From Candidatus Gastranaerophilales bacterium (lineage in GTDB: Bacteria; Cyanobacteriota; Vampirovibrionia; Gastranaerophilales; Gastranaerophilaceae), in the NCBI GenBank assembly GCA_944325575.1, contig CALVAR010000013.1, positions 1-60,136 on the forward strand: a stretch of DNA of 60,136 nt, read 5' to 3'. Made by a program: the position numbers and the translations under genes. Under the pieces are notes generated by a model, which was not told the DNA's origin, made no database searches, and saw only the letters and a list, made by a program, of their open reading frames with translations. How positions within the stretch are numbered: position 1 is the first letter of the stretch; each line of letters opens with the position of its first letter. This document shows positions 161 through 46,217 of the stretch, in pieces.

Positions 161-247
161 AAAAGTGGATTTTTAATTTTAGAGTGACTTAAAATCCTAC
201 CCGTAAGGGCGGATTTTTCGGAACGATAAAATCAAAAATCCACTTTT
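161..247 (+). repeat. Family 2 variable-arm hairpin, minimal member (i)
   Basis: Arms at 161-181 and 227-247 are complementary over 21 nt with one mismatch (a G-U pair on one strand). Between them lies GAGTGACTTA, an inner stem AAAATCC/GGATTTT capped by CCC-GTAA-GGG, and GGAACGA. The same GAGTGACTTAAAATCCTACC block and GGAACGA recur at 27056-27166 although the arms there are entirely different. It sits between repeat copy A and the 3' end of rsmI. No function is known to me. Confidence 0.8.
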
Positions 248-316
248 ATGATTTTCAACAGTTAATAAAAATATTGAGTTATCAATAAGCCTCCTGTGTC
301 AGTTAGCTATATAAAA

Positions 317-1147
317 TTATTTCAAATCAAGAACCATTTTGTAGATTTTATTTTTATTGACATCATACAGTGCACTTATGATTTGAGAAATATCCTTATC
401 CGAATAGTGAAGTTCTTTCAGCTTTTGAATTTTGGGTACAAATGTACTGTCATCCGCATTTTCTGAGCCCTGTGCATACAGCATACACACAATTTCACCT
501 TTAAGAATGTTATCGTTATAATAGCCTATAATTTCTTCTACAGTACCTGTTTTTACTTCTTCAAACATTTTTGTAAGCTCTCTGCCTACAGCAACACGAG
601 CTGCAGAGCCACGTATTTTCAAAATATTTTTTAATGTTTCAATAAGCCTGAGCGGTGATTCATAAAAGATCATATCAGTTGATAAAAACTTTTCAAAAAC
701 TTTTTGCTGTTGTTTTAGCGTACGGGGTAAAAAACCGCAAAAAGCAAATTCTTCACTTTCTCTCGGTATCATAGAGACAAAAGTCGTTATTGCACTGGCA
801 CCGGGAATTGATGAAATTTTTATATTGTGTTCAAAAAGTTCTCTGACAAGAATCCTGCCGGGGTCTGATACACAGGGCATCCCTGCATCGGAAATCAGAG
901 CTATTTTTTGTCCTGATTCAAGCAGATTTAAAAATTCCGCTGTTCTTTGTTTTTCATTAAATTTGTGATAGCTTACAAGTTTTGTTGTTATTCCGTACGA
1001 CTCAAGCAAATTTGCACTGGTTCTTGAATCTTCACAGGCAATAATATCAACATTTTTTAAAATTTCAACTGCCCTTAGGGACATATCAGATTTATTGCCG
1101 ATGGGAGTTGCAACTATATACAGCTGTACATCATTATTTTTAGTCAA
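317..1147 (-). CDS. rsmI: 16S rRNA (cytidine1402-2'-O)-methyltransferase RsmI
   Basis: RsmI 2'-O-methylates C1402 of 16S rRNA at the ribosomal P site, using S-adenosylmethionine. The 276-residue length is typical. The tetrapyrrole-methylase fold is visible: LYIVATPIGN near residue 9, the DIIACEDSR segment near 34, ALISDAGMPCVSDPG near 82 and the SIPGASA loop near 112. The start is TTG, chosen because AGGGG precedes it at suitable spacing inside the upstream gene, which it overlaps by 8 bp. That overlap suggests translational coupling with the STAS gene. Identification is by motif recognition. Confidence 0.95.
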   Translation of the reverse strand: MTKNNDVQLYIVATPIGNKSDMSLRAVEILKNVDIIACEDSRTSANLLESYGITTKLVSYHKFNEKQRTAEFLNLLESGQKIALISDAGMPCVSDPGRILVRELFEHNIKISSIPGASAITTFVSMIPRESEEFAFCGFLPRTLKQQQKVFEKFLSTDMIFYESPLRLIETLKNILKIRGSAARVAVGRELTKMFEEVKTGTVEEIIGYYNDNILKGEIVCMLYAQGSENADDSTFVPKIQKLKELHYSDKDISQIISALYDVNKNKIYKMVLDLK

Positions 1148-27030: not shown

Positions 27031-27191
27031 AATAAGCAGATGATGTTTGCTTCGGAGTGACTTAAAATCCTACCCGCCAATGTTATACGGCACGCAGATA
27101 CTTCGTATCTGACTTAGCCTGCCTCTAAAAAATGATAATTAATCATTTTTTAGAGTTCTTGGAACGAAGAAGTAAATATCATCTGCTTATT
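27031..27191 (+). repeat. Family 2 variable-arm hairpin, expanded member (ii)
   Basis: Arms 27031-27053 and 27169-27191 begin AATAAGCAGATGAT and are complementary over about 22 nt with two G-U positions. Inside are GAGTGACTTAAAATCCTACC and GGAACGA, identical to element (i). The centre is enlarged by two extra hairpins: AGATAC-TTC-GTATCT and a 14-bp stem with arm CTCTAAAAAATGAT. The arms share no sequence with those of other members. Confidence 0.85.
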
Positions 27192-40395: not shown

Positions 40396-40624
40396 TTTTA
40401 AATACATAGTTAAAAAAGAAAACTTTTTGCGTAATGACTTACAAAAACCGTTTGAACAACAATTAGTTCCATTTGTCTGAGGCATTGGAAATTATTTTAT
40501 TTATTGTGTAATGTCAGCTTTAAATTTACGCACAAATTAAAATGCCGAGTTATGGAACTCAGGTGAAAACCAGTTTTTGTAGGAATGAAGCATCAAGTTT
40601 GACTTTTTAACTATGTATTTAAAA
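40396..40624 (+). repeat. Family 2 variable-arm hairpin, large member (iii)
   Basis: Arms 40396-40416 and 40604-40624 are perfectly complementary over 21 nt (start TTTTAAATACATAG). Inside in order: AAACTT/AAGTTT; internal loop TTTGCGTAATGACTT / AGGAATGAAGCATC; stem ACAAAAAC/GTTTTTGT; TTTGAACAAC; stem AGTTCCAT/ATGGAACT; TGTCTGA; stem GGCATT/AATGCC; then GGAAATTATTT at the tip and GAGTT. The order and unpaired sequences match element (iv) on the opposite strand. Confidence 0.88.
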
Positions 40625-45946: not shown

Positions 45947-45987
45947 ATTTTCAATAAAACTTCTCTGTATTCAATTTTTTAGTTAAC

Positions 45988-46200
45988 AATAAGTTAAATA
46001 TTTAAAATACCTGATGCTCCATTCAAACAGAATATAATTTGAACCAGTCTCGGCAACTCGGCACGTAAAAATTGCTAAAGAACAAAGATAGTCGGTGATA
46101 CAAATAATTTCCCGTGCCTCGGACAGTACCTCGTTTGCAGTTGTTCAAATAATATTCTGTAATTCATTTCGCGAAAGGTATTTTAAATATTTAACTTATT
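45988..46200 (-). repeat. Family 2 variable-arm hairpin, large member (iv), minus orientation
   Basis: Arms 45988-46011 and 46177-46200 are perfectly complementary over 24 nt (start AATAAGTTAAATATTT). Read on the minus strand the core runs TTTCGCGAAATGAATT, an 18-nt stem ACAGAATATTATTTGAAC (46160-46143) pairing 46044-46027 with one mismatch, GTACTGTCCGAGGCACG, GGAAATTATTT, CGTGCCGAGTT and GAATGGAGCATCA. It aligns with element (iii) throughout, with GGCACG/CGTGCC replacing GGCATT/AATGCC. Confidence 0.88.
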
Positions 46201-46217
46201 GCTTATTATCTAAAATT

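Follow-up and report, generated by a model that had tools for sequence, protein, structure and literature searches.

We consider the hairpin at positions 161-247 of the window (the whole stretch of DNA that was analysed, 60,136 nucleotides long) to be, on balance, one copy of a non-autonomous, MITE-like intergenic repeat of the Gastranaerophilaceae, here called E1. The property conserved among its copies would be a long hairpin in the strand reading GAGTGAC...GGAACGA, mattering as RNA. The repeat would have spread through modules and recombination between cores and might, more weakly, act as a processing or stability hairpin. It is best filed as a new MITE-like structured intergenic repeat that is probably mobile. 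No gathering-score Rfam match was found in the window, relaxed Rfam searches of the locus sets turned up nothing credible on the elements, and literature searches found no paper describing these Gastranaerophilaceae repeats. The features of the window are as follows.

161-181, plus strand: 5' arm of E1 (outer stem), AAAAGTGGATTTTTAATTTTA; predicted fold, with the register backed by covariation
182-226, plus strand: 45-nt core of E1, GAGTGACTTA...CGGAACGA
182-188, plus strand: left strand of the putative tandem G.A helix of E1, GAGTGAC; invariant in A3, pairing proposed from covariation
191-217, plus strand: inner hairpin of E1, AAAATCC-TA-CCC-GTAA-GGG-C-GGATTTT; GNRA cap at 203-206, compensated changes elsewhere
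220-226, plus strand: right strand of the putative tandem G.A helix of E1, GGAACGA
227-247, plus strand: 3' arm of E1 (outer stem), TAAAATCAAAAATCCACTTTT
248-295, plus strand: tail of E1, TCAACAGTTARTAAAAATATTG..., common to the sister copy G000:C26:27856 and its G010 orthologue (86% identity over query 25-199)
317-1147, minus strand: RsmI-like rRNA methyltransferase gene, named by eye from its sequence; E1 lies 69 nt beyond its stop codon
27031-27191, plus strand: larger member with arms at 27031-27053 and 27169-27191, a 111-nt core and the signature GAGTGACTTA/GGAACGA
40396-40624, plus strand: member of the E3 family, with junction AATGAC/GGAATGA and a 155-nt core
45980-46208, minus strand: second E3 copy (152 bits at 46010-46179)

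The hairpin with 21-nt arms around a 45-nt core, as given in a preliminary description of this DNA, is borne out by the analysis. The arms form Watson-Crick pairs at 20 of 21 positions, the remaining one being A.C, and the predicted RNA fold of -35.6 kcal/mol lies far below that of shuffled sequences (-13.7 +/- 2.9; z -7.6). Three places in the window (161-247, 27031-27191 and 40396-40624) have the inner signature flanked by complementary arms, and 20 dinucleotide-shuffled windows have none; TGACTTA alone or GGAAYGA alone shows no excess over chance frequency. The large members do carry the same signature, as had been noticed, in the form AATGACTTA/GGAATGA at 40396-40624 and GAGTGACTTA/GGAACGA at 27031-27191. 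E1 is a minimal form only in a relative sense, as cores of 31 and 35 nt were found at L099, L107 and L024. The core at 27031-27191 also encloses a second structured repeat, GTTATACGGCA...TTCTT, at about 27082-27160. Its plan is TACGGCA-hairpin-GCCTGCCTCT-hairpin-AGAGTTCTT, the arms of the hairpins being variable, and it occurs both inside E1-type cores and on its own (upstream regions of L044 and L045). The start of the contig (window 1-155) is itself repetitive: its sequence, GGCACTGGGTTCG...CACGGCGTGCC, is found many times over in the genus.

About 20 copies of the E1 family are scattered in the genome from which the window comes (G000). An exact or near-exact 43-nt core is present there about ten times, and other copies have cores of 35, 111 or 151 nt. 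Relatives of E1 are also present in other Gastranaerophilaceae genomes. By pattern search, the 43-nt core occurs in four of the 23 genomes of the genus (G000, G002 with eight copies, G015 and G022), and diverged E1-type copies are found in G008, G010, G020 and G022. A covariance model (R1) with strict filters matches three of 146 sampled genomes of the family: G000 (15 matches), G019 (2) and G040, a member of another genus (14). Some of these matches represent a single palindrome hit on both strands, and the 14 of G040 are raw matches. Two of the G040 loci (L225 on C66 and L228 on C31) consist of tandemly duplicated DNA, about 200 and 400 bp, each with an E1-type hairpin. A search of named genomes with the exact 20-nt core start returned Candidatus Gastranaerophilales records and one 'uncultured bacterium' record. 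A phage origin was rejected, as two scans of viral contigs for two signatures found no copy of the family.

The strongest evidence for a conserved fold comes from the arms. With positions numbered from the core outward, one register, left -k to right +(k-2), holds ungapped in every copy. Among 14 diverse copies, standard pairs fill 98.1% of the cells, against 79.0 +/- 1.2 in shuffled controls, counts that are not to be taken as probabilities because the copies are related, and 41-54% if the arms are slid. Two-sided changes are seen at 16 of the 20 arm pairs; the arm sequence, described earlier as free, thus covaries. Compensatory base changes exceed both the shuffled and the slid controls, as expected of a structured RNA. 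The inner stem is compensated between copies as well (TCC/GGA, CCC/GGG, TTC/GAA), and in nearly all 43-nt cores it is closed by a GNRA cap, GTAA, GCAA or GAAA. Among arm cells that are not Watson-Crick, G.T outnumbers A.C by 38 to 5 in raw counts, by 25 to 7 once shared contexts are removed (p=0.002), and by 20 to 7 in a strict test in which each combination of position and pair counts once (p=0.019). The sense strand appears to be the folded one because a double-stranded cruciform or palindrome correction predicts equal numbers of G.T and A.C. Together, the G.T bias and the GNRA caps suggest that what the family conserves is the folded sense strand, most likely as RNA; a single DNA strand that folds would likewise account for the tolerance of G.T. 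After insertion, the arms may drift through G.U intermediates.

That arm complementarity is kept solely by DNA-level palindrome correction (template switching), with no selection on RNA, is an unlikely alternative but one that explains part of the data: the arms change fast and on both sides together, as at L022, where the orthologues in G000 and G022 differ at four compensated arm pairs around a nearly identical 111-nt core. The equality of A.C and G.T that it predicts is contradicted by the 25:7 excess, and the covariation of the inner stem, the GNRA caps and the replacement of G.A by Watson-Crick pairs all indicate a folded strand. Sequence is the usual basis for recognising dispersed bacterial repeats. 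The E1 family keeps its structure and exchanges its arm sequence by compensated pairs, both among the copies of one genome and between orthologous sites; its arms offer a ready-made series of mutations that tests which features of a bacterial palindromic repeat are seen by selection.

The inner signature is most simply read from the aligned copies as a helix, GAGUGAC/GGAACGA, with the pairs G.A, A.G, G-C, U-A, G.A, A.G and C-G. Its G-C pair changes to A-U in one G019 copy and in the E3 family, in whose alignment that pair is A-U ten times and G-C three times and the closing pair is C-G or A-U. Copies in G040 have G-C/C-G (GTGCC/GGCAC) or T-A/C-G (GTTCC/GGAAC) in place of the inner G.A pairs. 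The preliminary description had set a fixed loop, suggested to be recognised by a protein, against free arms. The signature is indeed shared and far more conserved than the arms, but it is not fixed, given the replaced G.A pairs of G040. A protein-docking loop is unsupported, because the signature is best read as a helix containing two tandem G.A steps, replaced by standard pairs in another genus. A kink-turn was rejected by eye, the 3-nt bulge 5' of the G.A step being absent.

All copies are intergenic, with one unclear case, and lie either alone between genes or within modules. According to simple ORF calls, stand-alone copies in the window's genus are often found between convergent genes (L009, L010, L022, L050, L088 and the copy at window 27031), and those in G040 mostly between tandem or divergent pairs. 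A role at 3' ends is not general, since the G040 copies sit in divergent and tandem gene pairs. This bears on a second doubtful explanation, a bidirectional terminator for convergent genes that has turned mobile. The six convergent spacers favour it; the gene pairs of G040 and the lack of a terminator-like site at E1 speak against it, and termination needs no conserved core. Specifically, a search of positions 60-400 found no intrinsic terminator (GC-rich stem plus U run) and no upstream sense-strand promoter of the sigma-70 type.

Under the favoured reading, that the hairpin matters as RNA, the rod would be present, where transcribed, at the 3' ends of neighbouring-gene transcripts or between them, and might there act on processing or stability in the manner of NEMIS or ERIC RNA. 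By this analogy, our best guess is that an E1-type hairpin affects the processing or stability of transcripts running through it. NEMIS/Correia and ERIC are MITEs with transcript hairpins (PMC2229807). Like the E1 family, they are short non-coding repeats of about 90-160 bp, dispersed between genes and able to form long stem-loops, and their proposed action is in RNA, via RNase III or mRNA stability (PMC2229807). The E1 family differs from them in that its terminal arms vary between copies and are kept by compensation, in having neither a TA duplication nor an assigned transposase, and in its lineage. Rickettsia palindromic elements are likewise palindromic mobile repeats, of 100-150 bp with a long predicted stem; they insert into coding genes (PMC2229807), whereas E1-family copies are intergenic apart from the unclear case.

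The analysis of E1 also exposes a larger multicopy structured family, E3, represented twice in the window and comprising loci L307-L344, for which there is no credible Rfam match. Model R2 finds E3 in 16 of 117 genomes and eight of 41 genera sampled, with up to 21 copies per genome. RNAalifold predicts 34 pairs, 20 of which have two-sided changes. Orthologues of the window copy in G010 and G015 are 93% identical to it, compared with 77% and 74% for the rsmI region, so that the E3 copy is better conserved than this neighbouring-gene yardstick. E3 resembles E1 in having an outer tandem G.A junction (R-U-G-A-N/N'-G-A-A-Y), an irregular rod, multiple copies and intergenic positions. Unlike E1, it has a conserved interior of about 170 nt with conserved loops of its own, UUGUCUGAG and CGAGUUAU. 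The tandem G.A junction is the one feature on which a putative common origin of E1 and E3 would rest. It would be a bold and rather improbable step to regard the small hairpins and E3 as two sizes of one undescribed Gastranaerophilaceae RNA class, its hallmark being a variable closing stem above a tandem G.A junction. Such a class would have a binding partner of its own or a catalytic function, and its mobility would depend on the folded RNA or single strand. In G020, E1-type hairpins are nested in the variable loop of E3 elements (L099 and L107).

Mobility of the E1 family is indicated by comparison of orthologous sites. The L010 site carries the element in G000 and G010, where the 5' arm is partly deleted, and lacks both element and arms in G022 and G015. 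The L022 site is occupied in G000 and G022; the element and its arms are absent in G010, G002 and G018. Likewise, the L004 site is occupied in G000 and G002, and element and arms are missing from G020 and G018. E1 itself is absent beside rsmI in G022, G010, G015 and G002, a comparison blurred by the contig edge at position 1; for G040, close relatives are too diverged for comparison site by site. With presence or absence at orthologous sites and dispersed short non-coding copies, the family has the character of a MITE.

The same empty sites tell whether the arms belong to the element. Insertion of a bare core into pre-existing palindromes such as terminators, the arms being captured target, is very unlikely. 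Several stand-alone copies do lie between convergent genes, and at one site the orthologous elements of G000 (L009, on C25) and G022 (L088, on C13) are in opposite orientation, reflecting either independent insertions or an inversion. However, element-free orthologous sites lack the arms as well, which makes the arms part of the element rather than a captured palindrome; one homologous arm register fits all copies; and identical arms are present at many loci. The arms, first taken to be locus-specific, recur across loci: the set GAGCAGATATTTTATTTTA is identical or near-identical at several G000 loci, as is GGCATAAGGTGTTTGCTTC in G002, and in G111 ten E3 loci share identical closing arms (CCGACC/GGTCGG). 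Among the G040 copies, almost all have arms that are theirs alone. Three chimeras (L002, L007 and L023) carry a 5' arm and a 3' arm that come from different subfamilies, the expected result of recombination through a shared core.

Many copies lie inside non-coding modules of 144-844 bp with inverted ends GATAATATNTATTATGTAA. Such modules are present in G000, G002, G022, G010, G015 and G020, and some enclose E1-type hairpins. Within a module, both ends mostly share one centre of the end hexamer, either TATTTA or TATGTA. No plain target-site duplication is seen at module flanks, and CTTGT is a possible repeat at one stand-alone site. We infer that the family spreads within these modules and by recombination between shared cores. 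A dif/Xer system was rejected: the module ends are dif-like and TTACATAATATATATTATC is single-copy in several genomes, yet this site lies in the coding sequence of a methyltransferase-like gene (reading LHNIYYHCIS), and GC skew shows no flip at that point.

The least probable explanation is a REP-like palindrome moved by a Y1 (RAYT) transposase that recognises a fixed loop in single-stranded DNA. Y1_Tnp proteins, the one transposase type searched for, are encoded by all three heaviest carriers (G000, G002 and G040), and the G.T bias favours one strand; however, carriers G022, G015, G010 and G019 have no Y1, and G004, G009, G011 and G021 have Y1 and, by pattern search, no element. GTAG- and CGTC-tagged REPs with RAYT (PMC3733652) resemble the E1 family as palindromes between genes, often close to a gene's 3' end, whose stems vary between families. 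The listed E1-family copies carry neither tag, and combine an inner hairpin with a stem of about 20 bp, as opposed to 5-13 bp in REPs (PMC3733652). An R1 search at E<=10 found no E1-family copy in ten Y1 loci. Y1 genes in G000, G011 and G002 instead have a different palindrome upstream, GGTTGGGCATAC(C/T)TGCCCAAC, GTAG-tagged in G000. E1 as the REP of a resident RAYT was rejected on these grounds: no copy of the family was found at the ten Y1 loci, and the Y1 genes of G000, G011 and G002 sit beside another palindrome. At L297 (G000:C7:85400), L300 and L305, this palindrome lies just upstream of Y1/RAYT-like genes, and palindromes related to it are scattered in G000.
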